From: Candidatus Gastranaerophilales bacterium
GTDB taxonomy: Bacteria; Cyanobacteriota; Vampirovibrionia; Gastranaerophilales; Gastranaerophilaceae
Direction of reading: 5' to 3'
NCBI GenBank assembly: GCA_947589705.1
Contig: CANQCO010000009.1
Span: 1 to 35,549, forward strand
DNA length: 35,549 nucleotides
The first letter of the stretch is position 1. Each line of letters begins with the position of its first letter. This document shows, piece by piece, positions 22,775-35,465 of the stretch. Under the pieces are notes generated by a model, which was not told where the DNA came from, did not search any database, and saw nothing but the letters and a program-made list of their open reading frames with translations. A program made the position numbers and the translations under genes.

Positions 22775-23422
22775 ATGGATGTGGCAAAATATATAGAACA
22801 TACTCTTTTAAGACAAGATGCAACAAAATCTGAACTTATAAAAATTTTTGATGAAGCAAAACAATATAATTTTTTAGGTGTTTGTGTAAATCCTCAAAAT
22901 GTCAGTCTTGCAAAAGAATATCTTAAAGGAAGTAATGTAAAAATAGTTACTGTAGTAGGATTTCCTCTAGGCTCCACGACAACGGAGACAAAAGCTTTTG
23001 AAGCAAAACAGGCAATAGAAAATGGAGCTGATGAAGTTGATATGGTTTTATCGGTTCAAGCTCTGAAAGATAAAGATTATGAATATATTGAAAACGATAT
23101 TAAAACAGTAAAAAAAGCATGTGAAAATCATATATTGAAAGTAATAATAGAAACAGACCTTTTAACAAAAGAAGAAATAGTAAAAGCTTGTGAATTAATA
23201 AATAAATCAGGTGCAGATTTTGCTAAAACCTCGACAGGATTTGTTAAAAACGGGGTTGGCGCAAAAATTGAAGATGTAGAATTGATGTATAAAACACTTA
23301 AGAATACAAATGTTAAAATAAAAGCGTCAGGGGGAATTAAAGACAGAGAAAAAGCATTAGCACTTATTAACGCAGGTGCTTCAAGACTTGGAACAAGCTC
23401 TGGAGTTAAACTTTTAAAATAA
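22775..23422 (+). CDS. deoC: Deoxyribose-phosphate aldolase
   Basis: Splits 2-deoxyribose-5-phosphate into glyceraldehyde-3-phosphate and acetaldehyde, the last step of deoxynucleoside breakdown. The 215 aa are a standard class I aldolase barrel: EHTLLRQDATKSEL near the start, VVGFPLGSTTTETK, NGADEVDMVL, Schiff-base Lys151 in FAKTSTGF, and Lys183 in KASGGI. AAGGTGAG precedes the ATG across the recO stop (3-nt gap). The last 9 bases overlap a convergent small gene. Confidence 0.97.
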   Translation: MDVAKYIEHTLLRQDATKSELIKIFDEAKQYNFLGVCVNPQNVSLAKEYLKGSNVKIVTVVGFPLGSTTTETKAFEAKQAIENGADEVDMVLSVQALKDKDYEYIENDIKTVKKACENHILKVIIETDLLTKEEIVKACELINKSGADFAKTSTGFVKNGVGAKIEDVELMYKTLKNTNVKIKASGGIKDREKALALINAGASRLGTSSGVKLLK

Positions 23423-23701
23423 ATTATCTTTTGGCGGCAAAGTCATTTTAATTTCCGGAAGCAATACCTTTGCAGCTTCTTCTAATTTTTTATTTTCATT
23501 TTTTATTTTATTGAATTTAAAATTTCTTTTCATTGCGAAATATAAGATACCAACAGCTATGGCTATTGTTGAACATTCTGAAACAACTTTTTTTACTTTT
23601 GCGGTTTTTATTTCTTTATCTGTAAAAGTGGTATTTGTTTTTTTTGTATTGTTGCTGCAAAATCTTATTTTTTTATAATTTGTATTAAAAGAAACTTTCA
23701 T
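23414..23701 (-). CDS. Small single-helix membrane protein, unknown function
   Basis: Not recognised. 95 aa: N-terminal MKVSFNTNYKKIRF (an 'SF' motif near the start, as in other unknowns here), a basic segment, one hydrophobic helix (STIAIAVGILYFAM) followed by positively charged residues, and a Lys/Glu/Leu-rich helix. A CAGGT lies about 8 nt before the ATG; the gap to the upstream glycosidase gene is 13 nt, so it is probably the last gene of that operon. It overlaps the end of deoC by 9 nt on the opposite strand. Confidence 0.7.
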   Translation of the reverse strand: MKVSFNTNYKKIRFCSNNTKKTNTTFTDKEIKTAKVKKVVSECSTIAIAVGILYFAMKRNFKFNKIKNENKKLEEAAKVLLPEIKMTLPPKDNLF

Positions 23702-27796: not shown

Positions 27797-28918
27797 CTAA
27801 CAAACTACCTTTTCTTTACTTTCATCAATTAATGATGTTGATGCCTGAGTTTTAGACCCCTTATCTTTATTAAAGTCTTTTAAAGTGAAAAAATTGCCTA
27901 ATAAAGTCATAAGAACAGCAGCTCCAATTAGCCCTCTGCCCGCATATTTAGTGGCTTTATTGCTATTATTAACAAATTCTTTAAAGCTCTTAATAAATTT
28001 ATTTAAAAAATCTTGAGGGAGAAATTTGTATTTTGCAATCTTTCTGCCCTGTTCTTTGGCAATTTTTGCTATTTCTATATGATTTTTAAAATTTGTTATT
28101 CTTTGTTTCGGGTTAAATACCATGGATTCCCAAGGTTTTTGAAGTGCAATACCTACACCTGTTGCTGCCCACAGATATGAGGATAATGTTGAAAATAGTT
28201 TTGTTTTTGTTACTGTTTCTTTTATTTTTGATTTCATTTTTTGGTCGGAATAGTCTAATTCTCCTTCTTTATAACCGTATTTTTTTGCTATTTTTTCAAA
28301 ATAACCGTTTCTTTTATCTCCATAGAATTTATTGTCATATAATAAATCCCAGCGTGGGAAATCAACGCTTTCAAATACTTTATGATATTCATAAGTAACT
28401 AAATTATCTTTATTATTTTCTTCGGGCAGTTCATTAATTATCTTTTTATATGGAAGGTTAACATCTATACCGTATTTATATTTAACAGGTAATTCAATAA
28501 ATTTCTTTGAAATATTTTTTAATACCCCGTAGGCAACTACACCAAGTGCCATTTTTTTGCCGAGTTTAGAAGCATTTACTGATGAAGGCGTATCATAATA
28601 TCTGTTTGCAAAATTGAATACTGCCATCATCATTGCACTACCGATTATATATGGTACGGAGCCCATTGTTAGAAATTCATAAAAGTTAGCGTTTTTGCTT
28701 CCTTCCATGCCTTTTTTCGGATATTTGGTAAATGCGTTAAAAAGCTTTTCAGTGTTTATTTTTAGCCCTGTTTCTATAGGACGTTTAGAATGTTCTTCTG
28801 ACAATATTGTGTCTTTATTTTCGCATTTACTCTTTTTTCTTTCTTCTTCTTTTCCGAAAGAAATATTTTGTATATTTTTTATGCTATTTTGACCTTGAAC
28901 CCCTAGAGAATAGACCAT
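27797..28918 (-). CDS. Multi-pass membrane protein of unknown function, related to its neighbour
   Basis: Not recognised. 373 aa: N-terminal polar region with NISFGKEEE at 18-26, hydrophobic segments at about 85-105 (SVPYIIGSAMMMAV), 120-138, 245-262 (LSSYLWAATGVGIAL) and 328-345 (RGLIGAAVLMTLLGNF), and a Lys/Asp-rich tail. The segment LPVKYKYGIDVNLPYK (143-158) matches LPLKLRTGVDIHQKY of the next gene, and both have a Trp-bearing hydrophobic helix later. The ATG has GAGG 6 nt upstream. It is the first gene of the run through the GH13 enzyme; the region upstream (28919-29164) contains a 12-bp palindrome. Confidence 0.82.
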   Translation of the reverse strand: MVYSLGVQGQNSIKNIQNISFGKEEERKKSKCENKDTILSEEHSKRPIETGLKINTEKLFNAFTKYPKKGMEGSKNANFYEFLTMGSVPYIIGSAMMMAVFNFANRYYDTPSSVNASKLGKKMALGVVAYGVLKNISKKFIELPVKYKYGIDVNLPYKKIINELPEENNKDNLVTYEYHKVFESVDFPRWDLLYDNKFYGDKRNGYFEKIAKKYGYKEGELDYSDQKMKSKIKETVTKTKLFSTLSSYLWAATGVGIALQKPWESMVFNPKQRITNFKNHIEIAKIAKEQGRKIAKYKFLPQDFLNKFIKSFKEFVNNSNKATKYAGRGLIGAAVLMTLLGNFFTLKDFNKDKGSKTQASTSLIDESKEKVVC

Positions 28919-29164: not shown

Positions 29165-29446
29165 ATGTACGAAGACGAAAAACTTATTTGCGAAGATTGT
29201 GGAAGTGAATTTGTATTTACGGCAGGCGAGCAAGAATTCTATGCACAAAGAGGTCTTGTTAATAAGCCAAAACGCTGTCCTGAATGCAGAAAAAACAGAA
29301 GACAAAAGAACAGAAGAAAATTATATGAAGTAACTTGTTCAAAATGCGGCTGTCAAACTAAAGTTCCTTTTAAACCGATTGAAGGTAAGGAAGTATATTG
29401 CAAGGATTGTTTTGCTGCAATTAAAGAAGCTGAAAATCAACAATAA
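29165..29446 (+). CDS. Double zinc-ribbon protein (CxxC-x17-CxxC type)
   Basis: Protein of 93 aa with two predicted zinc sites. The first (Cys9, Cys12, Cys38, Cys41) matches the 'probable zinc-ribbon' family, with ICEDCG, EQEFYAQRG and KRCPECR. A very basic linker (KNRRQKNRRK) joins it to the second site (Cys58, Cys61, Cys79, Cys82), which has exactly 17 residues between the CxxC pairs, as in the CxxC-x17-CxxC family. Such proteins are small cytoplasmic nucleic-acid- or protein-binding factors without known function. GGAG lies about 10 nt before the ATG. It has its own promoter and a terminator, so it is monocistronic. Confidence 0.9.
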   Translation: MYEDEKLICEDCGSEFVFTAGEQEFYAQRGLVNKPKRCPECRKNRRQKNRRKLYEVTCSKCGCQTKVPFKPIEGKEVYCKDCFAAIKEAENQQ

Positions 29447-29456
29447 TAATATTAAA

Positions 29457-29497
29457 CAAAAAGATGGTGCTTTTTTCAAAAAGCACCATCTTTTTTT
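29457..29497. terminator. Bidirectional intrinsic terminator
   Basis: A stem of up to 14 bp (AAGATGGTGCTTTT at 29461-29474 with its complement at 29479-29492) is flanked by an A-rich left side and a T-run on the right. It serves the zinc-ribbon gene on the plus strand and the convergent repeat-peptide gene on the minus strand. Confidence 0.92.
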
Positions 29498-29510: not shown

Positions 29511-29741
29511 TTAAGTAATAGCCGAAAATGAACCGCTGGTGGATGTTGAACAACTTGTACCAAAAGAACTTGAAGCGACTGAACCTGCTGTTTCTCCACC
29601 TGTATATGCTATATTAGAAGAATTTCCAAAAAAGCTTGCAACGCTTCCTGCTGTTTCCCCTCCCATATTAGAAGATGACAGCAATGAAACATAATTTGAG
29701 CTTCTGCCTATATTTAATAATGAAACATATCTTCCGCCCAT
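29511..29741 (-). CDS. Ser/Gly/Thr-rich small protein with internal repeats, unknown function
   Basis: Not recognised. 76 aa, starting at the ATG at 29741, chosen over an upstream ATG at 29762 because a full AGGAGG lies about 6 nt before it. The protein contains two repeat pairs: YVSLL at 5-9 and 17-21, and GGETAGSVAS at 27-36 and 48-57. The C-terminal 20 residues are almost only Ser, Thr, Gly, Phe and Cys, with a single Cys64. There are no long hydrophobic helix and no charged domain. The gene ends against a shared terminator and could have its own promoter (TTCACT, 17-nt spacer, TATAGA, minus strand, upstream). A precursor peptide or a surface/adhesive peptide are both possible; no processing or transport gene adjoins it. 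Confidence 0.72.
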   Translation of the reverse strand: MGGRYVSLLNIGRSSNYVSLLSSSNMGGETAGSVASFFGNSSNIAYTGGETAGSVASSSFGTSCSTSTSGSFSAIT

Positions 29742-29931
29742 AATAATCCTCCTAATCCCCAAGTGTATTTTCTCTTCATCTATATAAAAACATTTTAAAT
29801 AAGTGAAATTCAGAAGTTTTTAATTTTGTAACAAATCTTTATAATATGTCTTTTTTTACATAAAAACAGGTGTTTTTTAATTATTATTATGTTTAAATGA
29901 AGCTAACTTAATATATATTTCAGGAGAGTTT

Positions 29932-31203
29932 ATGAAAAAATTACAAGCCGGGATTATAGGTTTTGGTACTGTTGGAACAGGTGTTTATAAAGTCTTACAA
30001 TCGCATAAAGAAATTGAAATAAAAAAAATAGCCGTAAAAAATATAAATAAAAAAAGAAATATTGAAAATATAGATACATCATTATTAACAGATAATGCTT
30101 TTGATATAGTAAATAATCCTGATATAGATGTTGTAATAGAAGTAGCAGGCGGAGTTAACCCTGCTTTTGAACTTCTGACGACGGCAATAAACAATGGTAA
30201 ACATATAGTTACCGCTAATAAAGAGCTTTTGGCTAAGAGAGGAAACGAGTTGTTTCAACTTGCGAAAGAAAAAAACGTAATTATTCTGTATGAAGCTGCC
30301 GTTGCAGGCGGTATTCCCATCATAATGCCTATAAAAACAATATTATGTGCAAATAAAATTTCTAAAATTGCCGCTATTTTAAATGGTACTACCAATTATA
30401 TTTTAACCAAAATGCATGAACAAAATTTATCTTATGAAACGGCACTAAAGCAGGCGCAGGAACTGGGTTATGCTGAAACTGACCCGACGGGTGACGTCGA
30501 AGGCTTTGATGCGGCATATAAAATAGCTGTTTTATCCACAATATCTTTCAACAAAAAAGTTTCAATAGATAAAATATACAGAGAAGGAATTACAAAGATT
30601 ACTGCCCACGATATTAAAGCGGCGGAAGATTTAGGATACAGAATTAAGCTTATAGCTTTAGGTCAGGTGCTTGATGATGGTTCCATAGATGTAAGAGTTC
30701 ATCCTATGCTTGTTGCAAAGAAACATTTACTTGCAAAAGTAAATAATGCGACTAATTCGATAATGTTAAAAGGATATCCCGTCGGTGAGCTCGTTTTAAC
30801 GGGCCCGGGGGCAGGTGCTGAACCTACTGCAAGCTCTGTTGTCGGTGATTTGCTTGTTTTGGCTTCGGAGCTTGAAACTTCTGATAAACCTCTGCCTCAA
30901 TCAATCTGTCATCATACTGAAATTGCTAATCAAATTGATATAGGTGATACTTATAACGAGTATTATATTGCAATTAATGCAAGTAATAACCCCGGTGTTA
31001 TAGGCTTAATCGGTACTGTATGCGGAAATAATAATATTAACATTTCGACAATTATGCAAAAAGGTATTAATGAAGATAATACTGCTGAAATAGTTGTTAT
31101 AACCGAATTGAGCAAGGAATCTGATGTTCAAAATGCTTTAAAAGACTTGTTAAAATCAGAAAAAATAAAAAATATAGATAACCTTTTAAGGGTAATGAAT
31201 TAG
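29932..31203 (+). CDS. hom: Homoserine dehydrogenase
   Basis: NAD(P)H-dependent reduction of aspartate semialdehyde to homoserine, the branch point to threonine and methionine. The 423 aa hold the N-terminal Rossmann fold (GFGTVGTG at 10-17), ANKELLAKRG at 95-104, GTTNYILTKM at 152-161, the GYAETDPTGDVEGFDAAYK signature at 179-197 (Lys197), and a C-terminal ACT domain (about 350-423; NNPGVIGLIGTV) for allosteric control, usually by threonine. It is monofunctional, with no aspartate kinase domain. Strong AGGAG upstream; thrC follows after 9 nt. A TATAAT at 29840-29845 is the best -10 candidate, without a good -35 box. Confidence 0.97.
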   Translation: MKKLQAGIIGFGTVGTGVYKVLQSHKEIEIKKIAVKNINKKRNIENIDTSLLTDNAFDIVNNPDIDVVIEVAGGVNPAFELLTTAINNGKHIVTANKELLAKRGNELFQLAKEKNVIILYEAAVAGGIPIIMPIKTILCANKISKIAAILNGTTNYILTKMHEQNLSYETALKQAQELGYAETDPTGDVEGFDAAYKIAVLSTISFNKKVSIDKIYREGITKITAHDIKAAEDLGYRIKLIALGQVLDDGSIDVRVHPMLVAKKHLLAKVNNATNSIMLKGYPVGELVLTGPGAGAEPTASSVVGDLLVLASELETSDKPLPQSICHHTEIANQIDIGDTYNEYYIAINASNNPGVIGLIGTVCGNNNINISTIMQKGINEDNTAEIVVITELSKESDVQNALKDLLKSEKIKNIDNLLRVMN

Positions 31204-34754: not shown

Positions 34755-35465
34755 ATGATATCAAATGTTTCTTTTGGAAGTACTTTCAAAGTAAATAATA
34801 AGGAAAATAATTTTCAAAAATTTCAACAGTTCGGAGAATATGCCTCAGAAATTGAAAACAACCCGAATGTTACGGTTCAATTCGAAGATAAATTTAATAT
34901 AAAGGATCCGTATTTTGGTACTTTTGATTACAAAGCAGGTTATACGGTTATAGCACCTGACGAAAAAGATATTGATATAGAAACTTATTGCCAAAATAAC
35001 GGTATTAAATTCCATAGATATAATACGGAAGATTTAACAAGTCCCGAAGGAATTCTTAAAAGAATAAAACCTGCACCAAAAGGTTACATTCGTGCTATGG
35101 TTGATGTTGATAAATTAAGTGAATTATTAAAAAATCAAAATAGTAATTTTCAACATTGCGAAAAGGATTATCAAAATTATTACAAAGAGCAGACAGATAT
35201 CATGTTAAAAAACGGAAATCCGATTTCTGCTCCGACTTTATATATAAATTCATACAATAGTAAAGAGGAAATGCTTGAATATATAAATAAATTCGGAAGC
35301 GACAACTTAAATGAAAACTCTTTATTTATAGACCTTGCACAAACTACATCAGATCCGGAACATTGTTTATATTTTGCAATGAAAGATTTAGGTTTTGAGC
35401 AAATCCCCGTCTATGTAAATAAAGATAGTTATGAAATGGGACAGGCTTTAGGTATTATTAAATAA
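34755..35465 (+). CDS. Protein of unknown function with N-terminal SFG motif
   Basis: Not recognised. 236 aa, soluble, with GGAG about 7 nt before the ATG. It begins MISNVSFGSTFKVNN; the 'NVSFG' element also occurs as NISFG in the membrane protein at 27797-28918. The remainder is a mixed alpha/beta protein with many Asn, Tyr, Lys and Asp, two cysteines and aromatic-rich stretches (EKDYQNYYKEQTD). No catalytic motif was seen. A weak promoter (TTGATT at 34646-34651, 18-nt spacer, TTTAAT at 34670-34675) lies in the divergent gap. Confidence 0.8.
   Translation: MISNVSFGSTFKVNNKENNFQKFQQFGEYASEIENNPNVTVQFEDKFNIKDPYFGTFDYKAGYTVIAPDEKDIDIETYCQNNGIKFHRYNTEDLTSPEGILKRIKPAPKGYIRAMVDVDKLSELLKNQNSNFQHCEKDYQNYYKEQTDIMLKNGNPISAPTLYINSYNSKEEMLEYINKFGSDNLNENSLFIDLAQTTSDPEHCLYFAMKDLGFEQIPVYVNKDSYEMGQALGIIK

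Follow-up and report, generated by a model that had tools for sequence, protein, structure and literature searches.

Repeat-bearing ETAG peptides of Gastranaerophilales and their place in a putative RpaB-type regulon

The ETAG peptides, which carry one to eight copies of the motif E[TS][AC]GSxA, form a family observed here only in Gastranaerophilales and absent from the libraries and literature that we searched. One member is encoded in the stretch of DNA analysed here (hereafter the window), 35,549 nucleotides of contig C9 in the 2.09-Mb genome of a Candidatus Gastranaerophilales bacterium (G000). Our preferred but still tentative reading is that the ETAG peptide is a disordered, multivalent repeat peptide within an RpaB-type regulon whose products are probably exported. 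The regulatory company that the peptide keeps is a more interesting discovery than the peptide itself. A broader proposal, possible but more doubtful, is that RpaB, a light/redox regulator, was kept in the non-photosynthetic gut cyanobacteria to control a secretome. This secretome would comprise dozens of HLR1-activated leaderless proteins, ETAG peptides included, exported by a flagellum-derived apparatus.

The set of promoters with HLR1-like boxes supplies specific candidate targets, which makes the role of RpaB and NblS in Melainabacteria testable. The partial flagellar gene sets described for gut members (PMC4040986, consulted part) also gain a candidate secretome in this regulon. The ETAG peptides themselves, for which the libraries searched gave no match, are a protein family in which repeat number and partner gene vary by genus. 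Features of the window are listed in Table 1.

Table 1. The ETAG gene of the window, its parts, its promoter and its neighbours (positions are those of the window)
Feature	Position	Strand	Basis or remark
76-aa ETAG-repeat peptide gene	29511..29741 (stop codon included)	minus	translation and homologues
First YVSLL	29715..29729	minus	residues 5-9
Second YVSLL	29679..29693	minus	residues 17-21
First GGETAGSVAS copy	29634..29663	minus	residues 27-36
Second GGETAGSVAS copy	29571..29600	minus	residues 48-57
C-terminal tail GSFSAIT	29514..29534	minus	alignment and listed tails
AGGAGG ribosome-binding site	29748..29753	minus	sequence and script
Core promoter element TGTTTTTATATA	29781..29792	minus	conserved across genera
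Possible -35 element TGAATTT, lying between box and core	29806..29812	minus	alignment
HLR1-like box GTAACAAA-TC-TTTATAAT	29828..29845	plus	14/16 consensus positions
Bidirectional terminator hairpin	29458..29495	strandless	common to ETAG gene and convergent zinc-finger gene
zf_Tbcl treble-clef neighbour	29165..29446	plus	PF13451, PF23477
Homoserine dehydrogenase-like neighbour, divergent	29932..31203	plus	named by eye; synteny

The ETAG peptide and its family

The initial annotation of the window described a 76-aa ORF at 29511..29741 and gave no strand. The ORF is real, and it belongs to the minus strand, where the translation is an open peptide; the plus-strand reading of the same interval contains 10 stops. 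Both internal repeat pairs noted at that time, YVSLL and GGETAGSVAS, could be located by residue, and the description of a Ser/Thr-rich C-terminus with one Cys is correct on the translation. The GGETAGSVAS copies are coded by visibly different DNA, as claimed, with 19 of 30 bases in common and different codons at 7 of 10 positions. An exact 10-residue repeat appeared in none of 200000 shuffles of the window peptide, and an exact 7-residue repeat in 244 of 200000. The full AGGAGG ribosome site is present, 6 bases before the ATG. The terminator that had been assigned to the ORF as its own is instead a bidirectional hairpin, which also serves the convergent zinc-finger gene. At Rfam gathering scores, no known RNA was found in the window.

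The ORF had been regarded as an orphan, a status contradicted by homologues in many genera of the family and in two more of the order's families (L088 in f2 and L235 in f7). Homologues with varying repeat number were looked for and found, with one to eight motifs per member and lengths of 53 to 135 aa among the members read. The motifs lie within Ser/Gly/Asn-rich linkers, and a Cys form, ESCGSIA, occurs in genus g25. The C-terminal tail is often conserved and hydrophobic; in the alignment and listed tails it reads SF[SC]A[VIM]A in many relatives and differs in others. Across 13 aligned short forms, the invariant columns are the initial Met, the ETAG residues and a Phe close to the C-terminus, and S71, A74 and A76 are nearly invariant.

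As a single query, the window protein gave matches in 27 of 191 family genomes (E ≤ 0.1). Profile A1 matched 88 of the 191 (27 of 41 genera) and profile A2 matched 54 of 192 genomes of the order; these matches were read in part, and several weak ones, once read, proved to be non-members. Members in G073 (g7; L187) and G038 (g39; L209) were false negatives of A1 that the promoter revealed. The class and phylum samples outside the order yielded two matches only (L121 and L127), both false on reading. The matches listed include seven bins named Candidatus Gastranaerophilales and a bacterium from roe-deer omasum (at least eight loci, 590 candidate stretches). The 63 ETAG loci counted below come from 62 genomes. 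Many loci collected later duplicated places that were already covered. Outside this count are the weak matches judged to be non-members (L009, L019, L020, L022, L024, L025, L026, L029, L121 and L127), L118, where the motif occurs in a different protein, and the second g22 copies L125 and L126. Scans of four proteins each against Pfam, NCBIfam and PHROGs gave nothing at curated cut-offs (best PHROG E 0.21), and a literature search on ETAGSVA returned no match. A phage origin of the peptide was considered and rejected: a single-protein scan produced 137 pattern matches in viral contigs, none of which was confirmed.

ETAG peptides are small, leaderless and probably disordered proteins. The AlphaFold model of the window peptide has a mean pLDDT of 44.3 and almost no structure, any strand being shorter than three residues. 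The seven-repeat L017 protein, modelled from three sequences only and with a mean pLDDT of 44.6, is predicted to form eight short strands at intervals of about ten residues. Such regular spacing might be expected of a self-assembling surface fibre, cross-beta or solenoid, that would work in the manner of curli without being related to it. We give this fibre a small probability, given the low confidence of the seven-repeat model and the strandless prediction for the two repeats of the window member. The safe reading of the models is disorder alone.

Selection, loss and neighbouring genes

The suggestion that selection acts on the peptide was borne out by comparison of synonymous and non-synonymous change. 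pN is lower than pS in 15 of 15 pairs within the window's genus (on average 0.341 against 0.531) and in 55 of 55 pairs within genus g6 (on average 0.145 against 0.468). As judged from these sequence comparisons, the ETAG peptide is under purifying selection; synonymous change is high, so pN < pS indicates constraint and not its strength. The gene is nonetheless dispensable, not essential, because at least three genomes of the genus lack it. The whole ETAG unit including its promoter is missing from G159, G077 and G185, where no gene separates the zinc-finger gene from the homoserine dehydrogenase-like gene. In G142 the place of the ETAG gene beside the zinc-finger gene is taken by another gene, judged CHAP-like by eye (L132:540-1121). 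This junction could be a small site of gene exchange, holding a CHAP-like gene, an ETAG gene or nothing.

The order of homoserine dehydrogenase-like, ETAG and zinc-finger genes is found in four of six g1 members (the window, G049, G174 and G249), and the zinc-finger side only in the other two, G123 and G103, the latter at a contig end. The zinc-finger neighbour also occurs in three g6 stretches and, by antisense reading, in g33. In other genera the ETAG gene has different neighbours, mostly housekeeping-like.

A recurrent companion of the ETAG gene is an ORF of 46-50 aa with one hydrophobic stretch, 22-82 bases past the ETAG stop, in 26 of the 63 loci. It is present in 11/11 g6, 3/3 g20, 2/2 g17 and 6/8 g22 loci and in single loci of g33, g27, f2 and f7, three families of the order in all. 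SAFN[AG] endings occur in 7 of the 26 (the alignment covers eight), and a Pfam scan of two of these one-helix ORFs gave no match. No such partner is seen in 13 of 21 genera or families, the window's genus among them; a membrane ORF that a script flagged for the window is antisense to the zinc-finger gene and was left uncounted (26, not 27, of 63). The one-helix ORF may be ancestral and lost in g1, because both outgroup families carry one. The idea of a stand-alone type fits the window's genus but not the family as a whole, in view of the downstream ORF at these 26 loci.

The companion ORF in three families, together with the patchy loss of the ETAG gene, could be read as a two-gene toxin-immunity or toxin-antitoxin-like unit, with the one-helix ORF as the active or immunity partner. 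We consider this very improbable, given the many genera and families that lack the partner, the absence of any Pfam, NCBIfam or PHROGs family for the ETAG peptides and of a Pfam family for the two one-helix ORFs. If the ETAG peptide is instead the disordered, probably exported repeat peptide that we prefer, the one-helix membrane peptide of several genera, probably co-transcribed, would be its partner or anchor.

Nothing beside the window ORF resembles a maturase or transporter, in agreement with the initial annotation, and no maturase was seen adjoining the ETAG gene in 20 stretches, the window included, that were read by eye with no family scan. These observations bear on the idea of a modified precursor peptide, a RiPP whose repeats would be cores with Ser/Thr/Cys modified by an enzyme encoded elsewhere. 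The short repeated motif, its variable copy number and the Ser/Thr/Cys-rich tails all suit a RiPP precursor, as does the presence of SPASM (radical-SAM) domains in 26 of 30 genomes (seven SPASM matches and one YcaO in the window's own genome). However, YcaO occurs in only 4 of the 30, and the carriers G181, G137 and G038, which are 96-99% complete, have neither a SPASM nor a YcaO match at E ≤ 0.001, so that these enzymes do not accompany the peptide in every carrier genome. A precursor of the SPASM and YcaO classes is therefore unlikely, and for RiPPs as a whole we judge the prospect slim. In a literature search covering titles and the starts of abstracts, there was no evident report of RiPPs in Gastranaerophilales.

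Elsewhere in the window, three unknown proteins (27797-28918, 34755-35465 and 23414-23701) have a short motif of the [IV]SF type close to the N-terminus, and two of the three gave no match in a Pfam scan. By eye, such motifs also occur in unknown proteins of relatives and beside the ETAG motifs in L118. We also noted two similar genes (MTV[SG]FQNGS) with the same flanking genes within the one G000 assembly (L161 and L165, on C36 and C67). This assembly is listed at 5.6% contamination, and the bin may mix two strains.

A conserved promoter with an HLR1-like box

Upstream regions of ETAG genes across many genera align nearly gapless, with TGTTAA-N4-TGTAAC followed by a TGAAATT element and then TGTTTTTATATA (23 rows, mean column identity 72%). 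A promoter profile built from 29 loci scores above 14 bits in 59 of the 63 ETAG loci, including 30 of 34 outside its training set. The four loci with no promoter in the stretch covered are L114 (10.8), L062, L063 and L004, which begins at a contig end. On reversed locus sequence nothing exceeded 14 bits (1.63 Mb over both strands, overlapping loci included). Specificity requires the full profile, which matches the window once above 6 bits; if the short core pattern is searched by itself with 3 mismatches allowed, its frequency there does not exceed chance. Seven profile matches before other genes score 18-28 bits. A sequence-only model, R1, gave 14-60 matches (E ≤ 1) in each of 27 genomes; its calibration is rough, and its matches lean towards the box because it was built with the box. 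The VYAIFTMRKL genes (L038:10291-10836, L094, L076, L061 and L110) have the core promoter GTTTTTATATA and no clear HLR1-like box, and for this reason the core element might be the signature of a different sigma factor or regulator.

The upstream box, read on the reverse strand, fits the HLR1 consensus KTTACAWW-N2-KTTACAWW given in the consulted part of PMC13421787. The window sequence TAACAAATCTTTATAA is one base from TAACAAAACTTTATAA, which is among the example boxes in the portion of PMC6331805 used here. All 23 aligned ETAG promoters have the box at 13-16 of 16 positions, in the same position in 20 of them and one base away in the other 3, although the rows are related and so do not represent 23 independent cases. 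Mononucleotide shuffles, taking the best score over all offsets, reached 13/16 in 17%. The box scores at least 13/16 in 54 of the 59 ETAG loci with a promoter and below 13 in the other 5. The promoters of other genes are more telling evidence: in them it reaches at least 13/16 in 29 of 31 and 16/16 in four, scores that are best matches within 44 bases round the box, taken without a shuffled control. L236 and L237 score 10 and 12, and the box of L228 is out of register. The second half-site reads [GT]TTACA in 7 of the 31 other-gene promoters versus 2 of the 23 training rows, so the box is not dictated by the model alone.

Relative to a start site estimated via the core element, not mapped, the box lies at about -50 to -67, and the activating position of HLR1 is given as -45 to -66 (review PMC13421787, in part). 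On this estimate the window gene has an HLR1 box in the activating position, with 14/16 agreement and one or two mismatches. Homologues of RpaB and NblS are reported in Melainabacteria (PMC3787301; PMC4040986, consulted sections), and it was remarked in 2013 that RpaB/NblS may have another function there (PMC3787301). A literature search combining Gastranaerophil and HLR1 returned no match. From the sequence of the box, we infer that its binder would be an RpaB-type OmpR-family regulator. From a site some 60 bases upstream of the estimated start, this regulator would activate the ETAG gene along with the rest of the regulon.

A putative regulon of leaderless proteins and a flagellar-type export apparatus

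We examined 70 promoter loci, ETAG loci included (three, L189, L192 and L195, were not located), and the products are mostly without family match. They include coiled-coil-like proteins beginning MGLAASQARLLLLTARKSDLEYRAQ, proteins beginning MAISN..ETLL.YTKQK, proteins of about 55 aa, a DUF3060-repeat protein and proteins with a gly-zipper-like end (below the Pfam cut-off). An EF-hand protein and, in family f7, a CHAP plus EF-hand protein also belong to the regulon. By a hydropathy rule, an N-terminal hydrophobic stretch is found in 0 of 31 regulon proteins versus 54 of 260 background ORFs (Fisher p 0.0023), where several of the 31 are mutually orthologous and the background ORFs are all at least 120 aa. 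These 31 are what remained, for both the N-terminus and the box tests, of 40 promoter loci. Dropped were L206, L207, L208, L210 and L214 (no start in range), L203 (start too far), L218 (a repeat of L217) and the ETAG genes L209 and L235. The N-terminus of the window peptide, MGGRYVSLLNIGRSSNYVSL, has no Sec-type signal by eye.

A full-length FHIPEP export gate is encoded in 24 of 24 genomes, the window's own included, and a second copy in 6 of 24; as the gate is found in every genome tested, its presence cannot discriminate. The window's own genome has a cluster of FlgEFG-type rod proteins, FliE, FliF, FliH and the gate, and a T3SS-type ATPase is found in G049. A complete flagellar set was reported in only three of nine Gastranaerophilales genomes (Soo et al., PMC4040986, consulted part). 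The eight export-apparatus stretches that were read contain no such promoter above 8 bits. We infer that the regulon may be the cargo of this flagellar-type apparatus. A surface or exported ETAG peptide is possible and would fit its putative regulon.

A separate observation concerns proteins of about 490 aa that correspond to the C-terminal part of FHIPEP only (positions about 321-652), such as L247:3491-4960 (G000, C51), L250:6754-8211 and L252:7223-8701. They occur in addition to the full-length gate in nearly all of the 24 genomes, each a cytoplasmic domain of the export gate standing alone.

The ETAG peptide could also stay inside the cell as a multivalent scaffold, the motif acting as a short linear motif for a single cytoplasmic partner, with valency set by copy number. 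The motif is portable: a protein with a single hydrophobic stretch (L118 in G059) has two copies close to its N-terminus, and the disorder predicted for ETAG peptides would suit such a scaffold. The company in the regulon argues otherwise: one companion combines CHAP and EF-hand domains, which are typical of extracellular enzymes, and none of the companions scanned matched a cytoplasmic enzyme family at cut-off. We regard an intracellular role as unlikely. For the probably exported peptide that we prefer, two steps are held less firmly than its regulation: the regulon products, ETAG peptides included, would exit via the flagellar-type apparatus, and the repeated motif would act as a multivalent ligand or strand-forming unit outside the cell or at the envelope.

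Comparison with known systems

RiPP precursors with repeated cores, of which the cyanobactins are an example, resemble ETAG peptides in being short, with a repeated motif in variable copy number. They differ from them in that no maturase was seen beside the ETAG gene and that three carriers lack both SPASM and YcaO. In flagellar-type type III export, the parallels are an encoded gate with FliE, FliF, FliH and rod proteins, and regulon products that lack hydrophobic N-termini. Unlike the substrates of such export, the ETAG peptides match no known family, and their promoter is absent from the apparatus stretches. In contrast to the RpaB-HLR1 regulon of photosynthetic cyanobacteria, the putative targets in these gut bacteria are functionally uncharacterised leaderless proteins and not photosynthesis genes. 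The two are nevertheless alike in promoter architecture, with the box upstream of the core promoter, as in RpaB-activated genes, and a fit of 13-16 of 16 positions in the 23 aligned ETAG promoters.
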